Part shown: in pieces, positions 14,902-24,855 of the stretch | Numbering within the stretch: position 1 is the stretch's first letter | How the letters are laid out: every line of letters begins with the position of its first letter | NCBI RefSeq assembly: GCF_002007215.1 | Contig: NZ_MUHX01000020.1 | Coordinates: 1-46,458 of the forward strand | Source of the DNA: Pyramidobacter sp. C12-8 | GTDB lineage: Bacteria > Synergistota > Synergistia > Synergistales > Dethiosulfovibrionaceae | Direction: 5' to 3' | Length of the DNA: 46,458 bases | Made by a program: the position numbers and the translations under genes | Notes under the pieces: model-generated | What the model saw: the letters and a program-made list of their open reading frames with translations, nothing else | Databases searched by the model: none | Told to the model about the DNA's origin: nothing

Positions 14902-15555
14902 CTATTTCACCTTCCAGCGGTTTTCGAGCAGCTGCAGCGCGCCCGAGGTGACGCTGGTCAGCACCAGATAGACCACGGCCACGAAGATGAACGTCTCGAA
15001 CGAGGCGTAGGTGACGCTGCGCACCTGCTGGCCGACCATGGTCAGGTCGCTGATGGCGAGCACGGAGAGCAGCGACGATTCCTTGATCAGCGTCACGAAC
15101 TCGTTGCCGATGGCCGGCAGCATGTGGCGGATCGCCTGCGGCAGGATGATGCTCTTCATCGTCTGCCAGTAGGACAGCCCCAGCATCTTGGCCGCTTCCC
15201 ACTGCCCCTTCGACACGCCTTCGATGCCGCCGCGCACGATCTCGCCCACGTAACCGGACGAGTTGATGCCGATGCCGAGGATGCCGGCCGTGGCCGCGTC
15301 GAGGTTCACGCCCAGCGCCGGCAGGCCGAAGTAGATCAGAAACAGCTGGATCATCAGCGGCGTGCCGCGCAGCACGTAAATGTACGCCGCCATCAGGTAG
15401 CGCAGCGGCTTGAACGGCATGACGCGGAACGAGCCGATGAAGATGCCCAGCGCCGAACCGAACAGCACGCCGAGGAACGAGGCCTGAATGGTCACGCACA
15501 CGCCCTTCCAGAACATGTGCAGATACGGGATCAGCACGGAAAAGTCCAGTTCCAT
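14902..15555 (-). CDS. Polar amino acid ABC transporter permease (HisM/GlnP family)
   Basis: 217 aa with about five membrane segments. The family EAA loop appears as SKGQWEAAKMLGLSYWQTMKS fragments (EAAKMLGL near residue 135), and YVLRGTPLMIQL is the typical upstream motif. It forms the membrane channel with the ATPase encoded directly upstream (adjacent, no gap). A 126-nt part of its 3' end is duplicated at 22265-22390. Likely substrate is a polar amino acid by family. Confidence 0.93.
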   Translation of the reverse strand: MELDFSVLIPYLHMFWKGVCVTIQASFLGVLFGSALGIFIGSFRVMPFKPLRYLMAAYIYVLRGTPLMIQLFLIYFGLPALGVNLDAATAGILGIGINSSGYVGEIVRGGIEGVSKGQWEAAKMLGLSYWQTMKSIILPQAIRHMLPAIGNEFVTLIKESSLLSVLAISDLTMVGQQVRSVTYASFETFIFVAVVYLVLTSVTSGALQLLENRWKVK

Positions 15556-19450: not shown

Positions 19451-19915
19451 CTATTTCAAGTCCGCCGGGAGCGCGATCTTCTCGATCCGGTAATTTCTCC
19501 CGTCGACGCGCATCATCGCGAAGGAAAGTTCCAGGCCGAAACGCCGCCGTCCGCAGCTGCCGGGGTTCAACCACAGCACGCCGCCGCGCAGCGCCTCGCA
19601 ATAGCGGTGCGAGTGTCCGAAGATCACCGCGTCCACATCGTCCAGGTCCGTCGGCACGTCGGCAAGACGGTGCGCCATGAAAAAATTCAGCCCTTCGATC
19701 CGAAAGCGCAGCGACAACGGCAGACGGCGCGCCAGCTCCCAGTCGTTGTTCCCCCGCACCGCGTACAGCGGCGCCAGTTCCCCCAGCCAGTCGAGCGTGT
19801 CCTCGTCGTCGAAATCGCCGGCGTGGACGATGCAGTCGCAGCGTTTCAGTCGCTCCAGTACCTGCGGGCGCAGCAGCCCGTGCGTATCGGAAATAATCGC
19901 GGCAAGCGCCGCCAT
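19451..19915 (-). CDS. YfcE/MJ0936-family phosphodiesterase
   Basis: 154 aa. All short-form metallophosphoesterase motifs are visible: SDTHG near residue 9, GDFDD near 36, GNND near 57, MAHR near 84 and GHSH near 103. Relatives hydrolyse phosphodiesters with Mn2+. ATG at 19915 has AAGGTGAG upstream; the longer upstream frame lacks support. Monocistronic. Substrate unknown. Confidence 0.88.
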   Translation of the reverse strand: MAALAAIISDTHGLLRPQVLERLKRCDCIVHAGDFDDEDTLDWLGELAPLYAVRGNNDWELARRLPLSLRFRIEGLNFFMAHRLADVPTDLDDVDAVIFGHSHRYCEALRGGVLWLNPGSCGRRRFGLELSFAMMRVDGRNYRIEKIALPADLK

Positions 19916-20089
19916 GCTCTCACCTTCTCCGAAAAATCTCGTCATATTATAAAGCAAAGTGCCCGCCTTTTCGCGCCCGACCTCATCGCCGAAAGTCCGT
20001 CCTTCAGATCGAGGTAAAATTTCTATGTGCTTATCCTTGTCACGAAATTCATTTGCATTATAGCACTTCTTAAAAATTAAAATATATCA

Positions 20090-20103
20090 CTAACACATGT
20101 TAG
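20090..20103. promoter_or_regulatory. Palindrome before the dhaL-like remnant
   Basis: CTAACA-CA-TGTTAG is a perfect inverted repeat immediately upstream of AAAGGAG. A possible promoter TTGTCA-16-TATAGC precedes it (about 20036-20063). It may be a surviving operator of the broken gene. Confidence 0.35.
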
Positions 20104-20116
20104 AAAGGAGTCCCCC

Positions 20117-20226
20117 ATGGAAATGCAGAGCTGAATTCTTGAAACGGATCGTCGGCGCGGCCGAGGCCGTCGCAAACGCGGAAAAGGAACTGACGGAGAT
20201 CGACTCGCGCTTCGGCGACGCCGATG
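20117..20226 (+). pseudogene. dhaL-like N-terminal fragment, frameshifted and truncated
   Basis: A good ribosome site and ATG at 20117 give only five codons before TGA. In another frame the sequence continues as EFLKRIVGAAEAV...KELTEIDSRFGDAD, which resembles the start of dihydroxyacetone kinase subunit DhaL (its metal-binding Asp cluster). Similarity ends at about 20225, where unrelated sequence begins. Fragment identity comes from memory of the family and is moderately sure. Confidence 0.5.
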
Positions 20227-20488
20227 ATGAAGATCAACGATGGCGATCTCATCGTCTTTGTTCATGCCGAGACATGGATCCCCGGGAACATCGCCATTGT
20301 CCAGCCCGATAGAAAACTGGAGTGTTCAGGAGTAAAAACGGCTGTATTCTAGGTCACAGAACAAAGATCATGCCGATATCGAGGTCAGCGAAGACAATGA
20401 TTTTTCGGGAGTCAGCCGCACCGTGAGGATCATCGCCGACCGCGATCCGAAACCGGTTTTACAACAAGAAATAAAAATCCGGCAGTAA
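20227..20488 (+). pseudogene. S24/LexA-like phage repressor C-terminal remnant
   Basis: From ATG 20227 the frame reads INDGDLIVFVHAETWIPGNI then AIVQPDRKL, typical of the S24 peptidase fold of repressors. It stops at 20352; in another frame the text resumes as NKDHADIEVSEDNDFSGVSR and VRIIADR, matching the usual C-terminus of such repressors, ending at TAA 20486-20488. The N-terminal HTH and catalytic Ser/Lys segments are missing. It is fused to the dhaL remnant, so this is rearranged debris. Confidence 0.5.
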
Positions 20489-20490
20489 AA

Positions 20491-20655
20491 GTGTTCAATA
20501 ACATGATCAATAACGCGACTCTTGCAGATCGCGAAAAGGTTGTTAATACCGATAAACTTCTTTTAACCTATGTTATTACAAAGCAGTTTAAACAAAATTT
20601 TAATAATATCTATGAAGTTAAGTTTTTGATAGCGCCTCTCAACGTATCACCTTGA
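20491..20655 (+). other. Possible 54-codon remnant ORF, unrecognised
   Basis: An open frame from GTG 20491 (ATG 20503) to TGA 20653-20655 in AT-rich DNA, rich in Asn, Lys and Thr. There is no ribosome site and its end overlaps the padR promoter. I recognise no family; it is probably decayed sequence. Confidence 0.2.
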
Positions 20656-20702
20656 CTTTTACTATCAACAATAGTAATATCATTAATAGTAAAAAATGGA
20701 GG
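20652..20702 (+). promoter_or_regulatory. padR promoter with repeated half-sites
   Basis: TTGACT (20652-20657), a 17-nt spacer and TAATAT (20675-20680). Half-sites TTTACTAT (20658-20665), ATAGTAA (20671-20677) and ATAGTA (20686-20691) cover spacer, -10 and start region, suggesting PadR autorepression. GGAGG at 20698-20702 is the ribosome site. Confidence 0.7.
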
Positions 20703-20709
20703 CGTCGCT

Positions 20710-21234
20710 ATGTCATCAATAGATTTAGTTATACTCGGTATCGTATTGGAAAAACCGCAAAGCGCCTATGACATTCAAAAAGATGTGGAGTACCACCATT
20801 TTTCCCGTTGGACGAAAATAAGCGTGCCTTCCATTTATCGAAAGGTACTCCAGTTGAGCGAGAAAGGTTATCTGCAAAGCGATATTGTTAAAGGCGATAA
20901 GTTTGCGGATAAGGTAATCTATTCCATCACCGATAAGGGCAGAGCATATTTCAAGGAATTGATGGCTTCTTGTGCCGCGGGCTCGGTGCCCCTGTTATTC
21001 GATTTCAATGTAGTCATTACCAATCTGAACAAAATGGATAAAGCTGAAGCAATGGAGCTGCTTTCTACTTTGCGCCAGAGCATACAGTCCTCCACTGAAT
21101 TAATTGAGGGATATGCTCAGGAATTTTCAGACATTCCTTTGCTGGGAAGAACGATTTTCGAGCAGCAGCGGCTCCTCTATCGCGCCCTTCTGGAATGGCT
21201 GGATCACTTTGAAGGGCGGTTTTTACAAGAATGA
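20710..21234 (+). CDS. PadR-family transcriptional regulator
   Basis: 174 aa. Residues about 1-80 form the winged helix (LVILGIVLEKPQSAYDIQKD, then SVPSIYRKVLQLSEKGYL), and the C-terminal helices resemble PadR/Vir dimerisation regions. Such regulators repress genes for detoxification of phenolics or drugs. First gene of a three-gene cassette; its stop overlaps the yjdF start. GC content is clearly lower than in flanking genes, and the product looks Firmicutes-like, so transfer is likely. Probably self-regulated via the repeats in its promoter. Confidence 0.88.
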   Translation: MSSIDLVILGIVLEKPQSAYDIQKDVEYHHFSRWTKISVPSIYRKVLQLSEKGYLQSDIVKGDKFADKVIYSITDKGRAYFKELMASCAAGSVPLLFDFNVVITNLNKMDKAEAMELLSTLRQSIQSSTELIEGYAQEFSDIPLLGRTIFEQQRLLYRALLEWLDHFEGRFLQE

Positions 21235-21653
21235 GCGTAGGCCCTCAAAGCAGCTTAACCATCCTGTTTGAAGCTCCATTTTGGATCGCCCTATATGAAA
21301 GAACTGATAACGGCAAGTATGAGGTATGCAAAATCACTTTTGGATCAGAACCCAAAGATTATGAGGTCTATGAGTTTCTGCTGAAGTATCGGCACAAGCT
21401 GAAATTCAGCCCACCGCTCCAGGCCGAAGCAGCCATGGAACGGAAAATCAATCCCAAACGTATGCAGCGTGAAATTCATAGTCAACTGCAAGATAAGGGC
21501 ATTGGCACAAAGGCGCAGCAGGCGTTAAAACTCCAGCATGAGCAATGCAAGCTGGAAAGGAAAACAAAGAGCCGAGAGCGGAAAGAAGCAGAGAAAGATC
21601 GCCAGTTTGCGACACGGCAGGAAAAGAAGAAAGCCAAACATAGAGGAAGATGA
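21231..21653 (+). CDS. YjdF-family protein (DUF2992)
   Basis: 140 aa. The N-terminal part (LTILFEAPFWIALYER, then EPKDYEVYEFLL) matches the YjdF family, and the C-terminal third is a highly charged Lys/Arg/Glu helix. In Bacillus, yjdF lies behind a riboswitch that senses azaaromatic compounds; here no such RNA precedes it, and a padR gene takes that place. The ATG overlaps the padR stop (ATGA). Molecular function is unknown; a role in responding to toxic aromatic compounds is inference. Confidence 0.8.
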   Translation: MSVGPQSSLTILFEAPFWIALYERTDNGKYEVCKITFGSEPKDYEVYEFLLKYRHKLKFSPPLQAEAAMERKINPKRMQREIHSQLQDKGIGTKAQQALKLQHEQCKLERKTKSRERKEAEKDRQFATRQEKKKAKHRGR

Positions 21654-21654
21654 C

Positions 21655-21840
21655 ATGAGGATAGAATGGATTTTATGCCCCTTTTGCGGCAATAAAACGC
21701 GATTAAAAATCCGTGATGATACAGTCCTTGAAAATTTTCCGCTGTATTGTCCCAAATGTAAACACGAAACCTTGATCGCGGCACAACAACTGAATCTATC
21801 AATTATCCAAGAGCCGGACGCACAGACGCGGAGCCGATAA
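21655..21840 (+). CDS. Cysteine-rich KTR-domain protein
   Basis: 61 aa. Two CxxC pairs, CPFCGNKTR and CPKCKHE, would form a zinc ribbon; the KTR triplet is diagnostic. Small proteins of this kind are frequent cargo of Tn916-like and other Firmicutes conjugative elements. It starts one base after the yjdF stop, with GAGGA upstream. Too short for many gene finders. Function unknown. Confidence 0.8.
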   Translation: MRIEWILCPFCGNKTRLKIRDDTVLENFPLYCPKCKHETLIAAQQLNLSIIQEPDAQTRSR

Positions 21841-21878
21841 CACAAAGGGAAACCTCGGATGTTATCGGCTCTGTTTTC
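21831..21878 (+). terminator. Terminator of the padR-yjdF-KTR cassette
   Basis: GAGCCGATAAC (21831-21841) pairs perfectly with GTTATCGGCTC (21861-21871), then TGTTTTCTT. The stop codon of the KTR gene lies in the 5' arm. Confidence 0.88.
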
Positions 21879-21967
21879 TTGATATTCTCTATGATCTGCC
21901 AAGCGGCAGAAAAAAACGCCGCAAGGCAGACGGCTTTCTGCGCTCAAAAATAGTTTAGTTTCTTCAC

Positions 21968-21997
21968 GGCGGTTCAATTCGAGCCGCCGTTTTTCTT
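21968..21997 (+). terminator. Terminator-like hairpin in element remnant
   Basis: ACGGCGG (21968-21974) and CCGCCGT (21986-21992) followed by TTTTC. No intact gene lies directly upstream, so it is probably left over from an integrated element. Confidence 0.6.
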
Positions 21998-22040
21998 TGT
22001 TCCGACAACTTACACGGCGGCATAGAAGGAGGATGCCGCC

Positions 22041-22130
22041 ATGTTACGCCGGATTCTATCCCAGCCTGATCTGACGAGAGCTAGCTGCTCAAAAAAGCCC
22101 ATCCCCGTCGGCGGACAGTTTTGGCCATGA
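22041..22130 (+). other. 29-codon ORF with strong ribosome site, element remnant
   Basis: AAGGAGG is well placed before ATG 22041; the frame begins MLRRILSQPDL and ends at TGA 22128-22130. It is probably the decapitated start of a mobile-element gene or a leader peptide. Product not recognised. Confidence 0.3.
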
Positions 22131-22174
22131 ATATGAACTATACCATGTAAATAAACTTCATATTGCATACCATC

Positions 22175-22210
22175 GCGCCCGGCGGGGTTGCGACCCGCCG
22201 GGCGCTTTTT
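22175..22210 (+). terminator. Strong terminator in element remnant
   Basis: GCGCCCGGCGGG (22175-22186) pairs with CCCGCCGGGCGC (22194-22205), followed by TTTTT. It marks a former transcription unit in the scar. Confidence 0.8.
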
Positions 22211-22264
22211 GTCGTTTCCTATGGCTGAGATGGCTGGCGGTTGCTTTTTCTGGATTTTTTTCAA

Positions 22265-22456
22265 ATCAGCGACCTGACCATGGTCGACCAGCAGGTGCGC
22301 AGCGTCACCTACGCCTCGTTCGAGACGTTCATCTTCGTCGCCGTGATCTATCTGGTGCTGACCAGCGTTACCTCGGGCGCGCTGCGGCTGAACGTCATCG
22401 ACACGCTGATCCTCCCGGCCCCGCTGGCCGTCAAAACGCTGGAACTCGTCAGCTGA
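22265..22456 (+). pseudogene. Fragment of amino acid ABC permease gene (HisM-like)
   Basis: Nucleotides 22265-22390 match the 3' part of the permease gene at 14929-15054 (opposite strand) at 121 of 126 positions. The frame reads ISDLTMVDQQVRSVTYASFE onward, then diverges into 21 unrelated codons to TGA at 22454-22456. No N-terminal part or start exists. It is either a copied piece of the linked gene or the stub of a second, deleted permease paralogue at an element junction. Confidence 0.9.
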
Positions 22457-22475
22457 CGGCCGGACACTTCAACGC

Positions 22476-22522
22476 AAAATCGCCCTCAAAGCCTTTGTAA
22501 TAAAGGTTTCGAGGGCGATTTT
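22476..22522. terminator. Long bidirectional terminator hairpin
   Basis: AAAATCGCCCTC (22476-22487) pairs with GAGGGCGATTTT (22511-22522), and the inner part adds further pairs. It lies between the permease fragment and the tRNA 3' end and may terminate the tRNA transcript. Confidence 0.85.
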
Positions 22523-22557
22523 CAATCGACCTTGAATCAAGCCGAATCGTTATCATT

Positions 22558-22634
<77 letters not shown>

Positions 22635-23336: not shown

Positions 23337-24200
23337 TCACTGCGCAATGGTTCGTTCCCCGCAAGGGCTGCGGAATTCGCACGGCACCGCTGTCTGACAC
23401 TTGCCGCAGCCATAGCGCGGCGCGTATTTTCGCTTCTGCGTTGCCAGATAAGCGGCGCACAACGGATGCTTCTTTCCCTGTCTCAGCGAAATCGCGTGCG
23501 CCGGGCAGCGACGCACGCACGCCCCGCACTGAATGCAGCGCTCGTAAACAGCGTCGTATTCTCGCGACGTCGGTTCAATCTGCGCGTCCACCACCACGCT
23601 GCCCAAGCGGCCGGCCATGCCCTTTTCCGTGATCAGCCCCTTGCTGAGCCCAAACGTTCCCAAGCCGGCGGCAAAAGCGACATGACGCTCGGACCAGTTG
23701 CTCGCGTAGGTATCCGCGCTGACGCCGGGGAATCCAGCCAGCGTCCCCTGTCCGCCGCGCGCCACTCGAAAGCGACTATCCCGCGACGGCGCCACAGCGC
23801 GGACGCCTTGAGCCTGCAGCCACGCGCAGAGCTCGTCCAACAGAGAGGAGAGGAACTCCTGCCCCTCGATACGGCCGTAAAGCCATTCCAATGAGGTCCG
23901 CTCGGGCGCGATGCGGTTGCTCGCTCTCACGCGCTCGGAGAACGGAAAAAAGAAAGACAGCACGCTGCGCGCCTCCGGCAGCCAGTCCCGCGGCGAAAGA
24001 TGCCATGGCCCCACCACTTCCGCACTCTTGAACTTCTCAAAAAGAGGATCATCCGCCGCGGCGATGCCGATCAGCGGCCTGTCAAAAAAAACCGTTCCCG
24101 CCAGTTCAGGGTGTCCGTCCGCTATTGCCGCGGTAAGCACGTTGCCCGAGCCGGCGGCAAAACGCTCTTTCATCCACGCATCCAACTGTACGCGGTTCAT
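23337..24200 (-). CDS. 4Fe-4S protein related to epoxyqueuosine reductase (QueG-like)
   Basis: 287 aa. Residues about 180-245 hold RHVAFAAGLGTFGLSKGLIT, as in QueG-type proteins, followed by CIQCGACVRRCPAHAI and a second Cys cluster (CGKCQTAVPCE). QueG reduces epoxyqueuosine in tRNA, but this protein is shorter and lacks the C-terminal HEAT repeat, so another reductase role is possible. ATG at 24200 is fixed by AAAGGAGGT 8 nt upstream. It lies between the ribU-like and tag genes. Confidence 0.8.
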   Translation of the reverse strand: MNRVQLDAWMKERFAAGSGNVLTAAIADGHPELAGTVFFDRPLIGIAAADDPLFEKFKSAEVVGPWHLSPRDWLPEARSVLSFFFPFSERVRASNRIAPERTSLEWLYGRIEGQEFLSSLLDELCAWLQAQGVRAVAPSRDSRFRVARGGQGTLAGFPGVSADTYASNWSERHVAFAAGLGTFGLSKGLITEKGMAGRLGSVVVDAQIEPTSREYDAVYERCIQCGACVRRCPAHAISLRQGKKHPLCAAYLATQKRKYAPRYGCGKCQTAVPCEFRSPCGERTIAQ

Positions 24201-24219
24201 TCGAAGAAACCTCCTTTGC

Positions 24220-24855
24220 TCACGCCCCCCGCCAGGGGAGCGCAAAAAATCGTTTCAGCCGTTTGTACGCTATGAACGCCAGCAGCGACGTGACGCCGTA
24301 TTTGAACAGGTTGAACGGCAGCAGCGCGTAGACCATCAGCGTATAAAGATCCGTCACCGCGGCATTGGCAGCGTGCCCCATGCCGATCACCGTCTCCATT
24401 TTCAGTCCCAGCAGGCGCGCGTAAGCGGGAAAAAAGACGAAAAAGTTGCCCAGCACGATCAGCGACGAAGCGCACAGCGTGCCCCAAAGCAGCGCCTGCG
24501 CAGCGGCGCGTTTCGTGCGCCGGCGGCCGTACAAAAGCGCCGCGGGCACGACGTAGCACAGACTGCCCCACAGGTTTGCCGCCTCGCCGACGCCCATGGT
24601 CGTCGTGCCGTTGAGCAGGAAATTGAGCGTTACCTTGACGACCGCCGCAAAAGCTCCGGCGCCGGGACCCATCATGCAGCCGCCGAGGATCACCGGCAGC
24701 TCGGAAAGATCGAACTTCACGAACGGCGGCACAAAAGGCACCGGAAATTCGAGGATCATCAGCAGCGTGCCGACCGCTCCAAGCATACCCGTCAGAACAA
24801 GCGAATGCAGCGAAAAACGCCGGCAGCGCGCCAGCGACATGGTGTCATCCTTCAT
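24220..24855 (-). CDS. ribU: ECF transporter S component, RibU-like (riboflavin)
   Basis: 211 aa, five to six hydrophobic segments. The RibU-like motif VKFDLSELPVILGG, then MGPGAGAFAAVVKV near residues 50-80, supports riboflavin specificity. RibU binds riboflavin in the membrane and uses a shared EcfAAT module encoded elsewhere. The gene follows ribF across a terminator and has its own promoter, consistent with flavin supply. No FMN riboswitch is recognisable upstream. Specificity is probable, not certain. Confidence 0.78.
   Translation of the reverse strand: MKDDTMSLARCRRFSLHSLVLTGMLGAVGTLLMILEFPVPFVPPFVKFDLSELPVILGGCMMGPGAGAFAAVVKVTLNFLLNGTTTMGVGEAANLWGSLCYVVPAALLYGRRRTKRAAAQALLWGTLCASSLIVLGNFFVFFPAYARLLGLKMETVIGMGHAANAAVTDLYTLMVYALLPFNLFKYGVTSLLAFIAYKRLKRFFALPWRGA

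Follow-up and report, generated by a model that had tools for sequence, protein, structure and literature searches.

A decayed conjugative-element remnant beside tRNA-Arg(CCT) in Pyramidobacter and a related Clostridia family that carries a spare tRNA gene

A low-GC piece of DNA in Pyramidobacter sp. C12-8 (positions 20650-22264) is very probably the decayed remnant of a conjugative element (ICE) whose family uses a tyrosine integrase to enter the tRNA-Arg(CCT) gene at its anticodon loop. Coordinates refer to the window, by which we mean the whole stretch of DNA analysed, 46,458 nucleotides of contig NZ_MUHX01000020.1 (C101 in our numbering), from a 2.67-Mb genome in 182 contigs. The scar in the window is ordinary debris of a decayed ICE, and the part of interest is its tRNA-carrying source family. 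We consider it likely that this ICE lineage uses tRNA-dependent integration, in which an element disrupts the tRNA-Arg(CCT) gene and brings the sole functional copy, on which the host then depends, with later elements stacking in the carried tRNA. A like insertion with Lamassu-like defence genes would then have become stuck in a conspecific genome, G041, after integrase loss, and the strain would now depend on a tRNA gene of foreign origin.

Composition and layers of the patch

The GC content of 20650-22264 is 45.6%, against 62.6% elsewhere in the window, and the 1,615-bp blocks with the lowest GC content all lie within the patch (43-45%, versus a window mean of 61.8, sd 4.3). Over its whole length the piece shows 86-87% identity to a right-end module found in ICEs from Clostridia. 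A preliminary description of this DNA had proposed a foreign mobile-element scar of lower GC content extending from 19960 to 22557, where it was thought to stop at the 3' end of a tRNA-Arg gene. The foreign scar is borne out by composition and by the match to ICEs, but its right border is not. Foreign DNA ends at 22264 and is followed by filler and native DNA, and therefore the tRNA 3' end is not the edge of the element.

Several layers can be told apart. At 20097-20250 (+) lies a putative N-terminal scrap of DhaL from a native dha operon, whose NCBIfam match is weak (E 0.08-0.3). It is followed at 20251-20649 by AT-rich debris without a relative among the other 40 genomes; one frame in this debris looks like an S24 peptidase by eye, a likeness that no search supported. 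The ICE remnant (+), representing the inner part of the right-end module, is a contiguous match to five Clostridia loci (L058, L060, L063, L067 and L068). Exactly between it and the tail of a SorC-type regulator gene is a filler at 22265-22390 (+), an inverted 126-bp duplicate from an ABC permease gene of the same window (96% identity to 14929-15054 on the minus strand), whose right join falls in an 11-bp stretch common to the SorC gene. The SorC tail at 22375-22456 (+) matches sister genome G003 at 93% from 22375 onwards; the gene is complete in that genome and encodes a Sugar-bind domain. The 183 bp adjoining the tRNA (22375-22557) are 92% identical in G003 and thus native, and include a terminator hairpin at 22476-22522 common to both genomes. 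The tRNA-Arg(CCT) gene itself (22558-22634, minus strand) is intact, and carries the crossover core CTTAGGAG at 22595-22602. The preliminary description's gene fragments are real: the permease copy and the SorC tail are well founded, and only the likeness to DhaL is weak. Its strong terminators were recovered as well: 11 terminator-like sites were observed against 3.8 (sd 2.5) in shuffled sequences, two of them very strong (21966-21990 and 22175-22205), and the hairpin at 22476-22522 is a third long one.

Sister species reveal the native state of this interval. In G003, the stretch from the TRAP binding-protein gene to the tRNA contains a Dak1 fragment (in the interval that corresponds to that of window 20097-20250), an aldolase gene that, as read from the sequence, is interrupted by an in-frame stop, a small gene and the complete SorC-type regulator gene, whereas G001 has only ~0.4 kb. 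The window retains the regulator tail with its terminator, and perhaps the DhaL scrap. Decay of a native operon was therefore under way here, and the foreign piece sits in its ruins. The region of the ICE piece is absent from both sister species, and the gene order is accordingly not conserved across the genus, while the flanking genes are native and syntenic. This comparison used G001 and G003; G002 (a short contig) and G004 were left out, neither matching over the tag gene. In conspecific G041 the layout of the patch is the same, with 98-99% identity, apart from ~121 extra bp at 20477 flanked by an 8-bp repeat, and all layers are therefore older than the split of the two strains.

Some further differences lie nearby. 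The tRNA-Arg 3' end is the exact point at which G001 and the window part (L022 9827-10246), perhaps a mark left by a different insertion. The gene at 23337-24245 (minus strand), which we take to be of 4Fe-4S type, lies between the tag gene and a transporter gene, and is missing at that place in G001 and G003. A YfcE-type phosphodiesterase gene (19451-19957, minus strand) is likewise absent there from both, and so the variable stretch may begin to the left of the AT-rich part.

The padR-yjdF-KTR cassette and its RNA features

The cassette of the preliminary description was confirmed by Pfam. It comprises a padR-type regulator gene (20710-21234; PF03551, 8.6e-08), yjdF (DUF2992; 21231-21653; PF11208, 2.5e-52) and a cysteine-rich KTR gene (Cys_rich_KTR; 21655-21840; PF14205, 6e-31), all on the plus strand. 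Ahead of padR is a promoter-like site with a self-complementary repeat (20652-20695, +), and an inverted match at 20655-20694 is present in relatives; this repeat is likely the PadR operator. Li et al. (2016, PMC4793209) report that PadR substitutes for the azaaromatic riboswitch ahead of yjdF, and propose a part in defence against toxic compounds. The cassette probably serves, under the control of PadR, to counter aromatic compounds that are toxic. We found no yjdF riboswitch in the window.

Downstream of the cassette, positions 21872-22009 (+) resemble the SQ2397 cis-regulatory RNA at 46.3 bits (E 3.3e-06), under the Rfam cut-off of 100, and the corresponding region in ICE relatives scores 50-55 bits. 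Further Rfam matches (E 0.16-0.56), besides this one and the tRNA, were taken as chance. The element-like leader ORF of the preliminary description lies at 22041-22130 (+) and has relatives in Clostridia ICEs, although the window's copy is frameshifted relative to them. Positions 22088-22215 align with the part of Tn1549 that precedes its sigma gene. The terminator at 22175-22205 (+), with 12 G-C pairs and then a T run, is a putative attenuator 3' of the leader. In Clostridia ICEs (L063 5589-7143) and at the Tn1549 locus (L024 3778-5298), an SQ2397-like RNA and a leader ORF precede sigma, and a pemK RNA precedes xis; together these could perhaps form an attenuator chain controlling excision. 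Against plasmid and phage collections the window sequence had no long match; what was found was confined to KTR, YjdF and the leader region of Tn1549.

A source family among Clostridia elements

A scan for YjdF yielded 91 loci, of which 80 were kept. The padR gene lies directly upstream of yjdF in at least 47 of these and KTR directly downstream in at least 39, with both in at least 35, counts that are lower bounds because 9 of the 80 loci start near yjdF. A MATE pump gene is upstream of the padR-yjdF pair in 8. The match to the window continues past KTR, reaching 22248-22265, in just the five loci named above, which are also the sole carriers among the 80 of a tyrosine integrase at >80% identity (Phage_integrase domain, 1.8e-14). 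The module in which the window's piece finds its match runs padR-yjdF-KTR, leader and terminator, sigma, HTH, xis and tyrosine integrase (int). Other carriers of YjdF-KTR have serine recombinases instead, so the cassette alone is no proof of the type of parent. One whole element, in G187 with ends ~44 kb apart, encodes MobA/MobL (1.4e-92), TrbL_2 (1e-51) and P-loop_TraG (2.4e-06). Judging by gene content, a relaxase and transfer genes between the ends of this one element, the source family consists of ICEs.

The window itself holds a remnant and not an ICE. No integrase, xis, sigma, transfer genes, att repeat or carried tRNA was found in the patch, and the intact native tRNA shows no tRNA-dependent integration there. 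As the preliminary description had found no integrase or repeated tRNA end, so we detected the tRNA 3'-end pattern once in its own genome at up to 3 mismatches, and the core CTTAGGAG once in the window, within the tRNA.

Integration site and carried tRNA

At the right end of the source ICEs, a complete tRNA-Arg(CCT) comes next after int; beyond it lie a short element end, the core TTAGGAG and then the 5' half of a second tRNA-Arg. The left ends carry a tRNA-Arg 3' half. The crossover of the family is in the anticodon loop. The preliminary description, which had regarded the tRNA as a site of the kind used by integrases, was right about the gene, since both the source family and the insertion in G041 use tRNA-Arg(CCT), but had placed the border of the scar at the 3' end. 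In A. colihominis the two host halves rejoin to tRNA-Arg(CCT) and neither junction by itself is a tRNA, with linkage inferred for this element as its ends are on separate contigs. Rejoined halves in G193 and G194 also give a tRNA, although tandem copies make the pairing of ends ambiguous. Element ends are stacked at L067, L153 and L160, and at L060, L157 and L163 the carried tRNA has itself been cut by a further insertion. L163, with an 85% identical integrase fragment and no tRNA, was considered as an exception; this was refuted, because the 3' half of its carried tRNA is cut at the core as well. The carried tRNA is identical in L058, L067, L068, L153 and L154, whereas the host halves differ where shown.

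A search for the integrase in 197 genomes from the order of A. colihominis gave 18 matches. Each of the 11 loci with at least 58% identity has tRNA-Arg(CCT) at its end, complete in 10 and split by a further insertion in one; in the 7 with ~50% identity or less, no tRNA-Arg(CCT) follows the locus's own integrase. In a tree, the 15 integrases that use the tRNA-Arg(CCT) site form one group (support 100/99), which shows clustering and not a dated origin, as its rows hold near copies and one very long branch. None of 183 genomes in the window's phylum matched; there are no positives there for the query, which does match in the order of A. colihominis.

On sequence grounds, the source family has several features of tRNA-dependent integration, namely a tyrosine integrase acting at a tRNA att site, a short core, a host tRNA left unrestored and a complete like tRNA carried. 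Since only a short core is common to element and target, insertion breaks the host tRNA gene without restoring it; the complete tRNA-Arg(CCT) beside the integrase would take over, and can become the target of the next element. The carried gene presumably replaces the split host tRNA-Arg in function, and would then be needed for survival.

An insertion in the conspecific genome

The native tRNA-Arg(CCT) of G041 is split at CTTAGGAG by a 9,067-bp insertion (L139 3144-12220, ~C1:2006140-2015220). Neither junction is a tRNA, and the rejoined site is identical to the window at 264 of 267 positions. The insert contains a complete tRNA-Arg(CCT), IS4/5- and IS110-type transposases, an AAA/DUF4143 gene, DUF5688 fragments and Lamassu-like matches to LmuA (2.9e-62), LmuB (1.3e-144) and LmuC (1.3e-14). 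No further tRNA-Arg(CCT) was found in G041 at E up to 1e-3, and the one place with further tRNA matches holds tRNA-Arg(ACG). None of the 8 proteins scanned in the insert is an integrase, so that the insert is at most a candidate member of the Clostridia ICE family.

How the scar may have formed

Where the parent ICE sat is less clear than what it was. That the patch is an ordinary native region of locally low GC content, as its native, syntenic flanking genes might suggest, has almost no probability left: it is contradicted by the identity to Clostridia ICEs, the absence from sister species and the Tn1549-like leader region. The polarity of the family, with the int end toward the tRNA, and the nearness of the piece to the target favour a parent in the window's own tRNA-Arg(CCT), whereas the native SorC tail and terminator between remnant and tRNA argue against simple decay in place. 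Deletions, whose order is conjectural, would have removed the MATE pump and transfer genes to the left of the remnant, and sigma, HTH, xis, int and the spare tRNA to its right. The remnant would so have come to lie among relics of the native operon, joined to native DNA by the permease filler. Two routes seem about equally probable: replacement of the right end by incoming native DNA, joined illegitimately at its left, or the joining of fragments at the site of a break. On the second route, which we put slightly below even, the parent would never have occupied this tRNA, and linear ICE and permease fragments would have been joined end to end during break repair in the decaying operon. The native DNA separating remnant from tRNA favours this, the filler and its 11-bp shared stretch look like repair, and there is no att trace. 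Against it stand a source family that targets tRNA-Arg(CCT), a piece that lies ~300 bp from that gene in the family's orientation, and the same cassette beside a split tRNA-Arg in Faecalibacterium gallinarum. In that species (L070 5648-5780) <100 bp separate the cassette from the 3' half of the tRNA-Arg, and the cassette is on the outer side of that half, an arrangement close to the window's.

The cassette might also no longer be debris, selection having retained it as an operon for detoxification in the host, but we regard this as unlikely. All three genes are open in the window and G041, their proteins are 98-100% identical between the two strains, and dN/dS against the Clostridia copies is 0.06-0.11, although most of that divergence may be older than the arrival of the cassette. 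Changes between the two strains (3 silent ones in padR; 3 amino-acid changes in yjdF plus KTR) are too few to judge. The genome does hold a second copy (87%) on contig C122 (L020 8605-9737 = G000:C122:38604-39736), as does G041, but its padR is stopped at codon 6, and it lies next to a serine recombinase gene with a frameshift and to a sigma gene. Decayed ICE debris remains our preferred reading of the piece.

Significance and comparison with known systems

The source family would extend to conjugative elements of gut bacteria a rule of phages: enter a tRNA gene, leave it unrestored and bring one's own. Such a principle would account for the difficulty of losing these elements, for their accumulation at one tRNA, and for the way in which a strain could end up relying on a tRNA gene of foreign origin. 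One study reportedly treats Acidithiobacillus ICEs and the tRNA anticodon stem/loop, and could bear on precedent among ICEs. Breaking a tRNA gene and carrying a spare is published for phages, and we found no such report for ICEs in the literature searched, which included few subscription papers and, for some sources, partial texts.

Among known systems, Tn1549-type ICEs (the vanB element) share the leader region and the subsequent order sigma, HTH, xis and int, and the DNA ahead of sigma in NZ_LR135359.1 and pMG2200 shows 74% identity to window 22088-22215. However, the integrase of the Clostridia family shares only ~23% identity with theirs, and they carry van cargo where that family has padR-yjdF-KTR and the window only a fragment. 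In its available excerpts, the account of tRNA-dependent lysogeny in actinobacteriophages (Guerrero-Bustamante & Hatfull 2024, PMC10865867) resembles the Clostridia family in the tyrosine integrase, tRNA target, short core, unrestored host tRNA and carried like tRNA, although our family consists of conjugative elements, known here by sequence. The usual tRNA-gene islands, as outlined in portions of the Islander paper (PMC4383910), also combine a tyrosine integrase with a tRNA target, and anticodon-loop crossover is a known class among them, but there an attP fragment restores the tRNA, whereas the Clostridia elements carry a whole separate tRNA gene. Tn6194-like elements, which are Tn916-related ICEs (PMC7168690), likewise reside within a tRNA-Arg gene of Firmicutes; a carried tRNA goes unmentioned in the excerpted description, with which, and not with sequence, the comparison was made. 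Finally, the padR-yjdF pairs of PMC4793209, so far as its excerpts describe them, also have PadR substituting for the azaaromatic riboswitch ahead of yjdF, whereas here the pair occurs with KTR, in some loci with the MATE pump gene upstream, and inside mobile elements.
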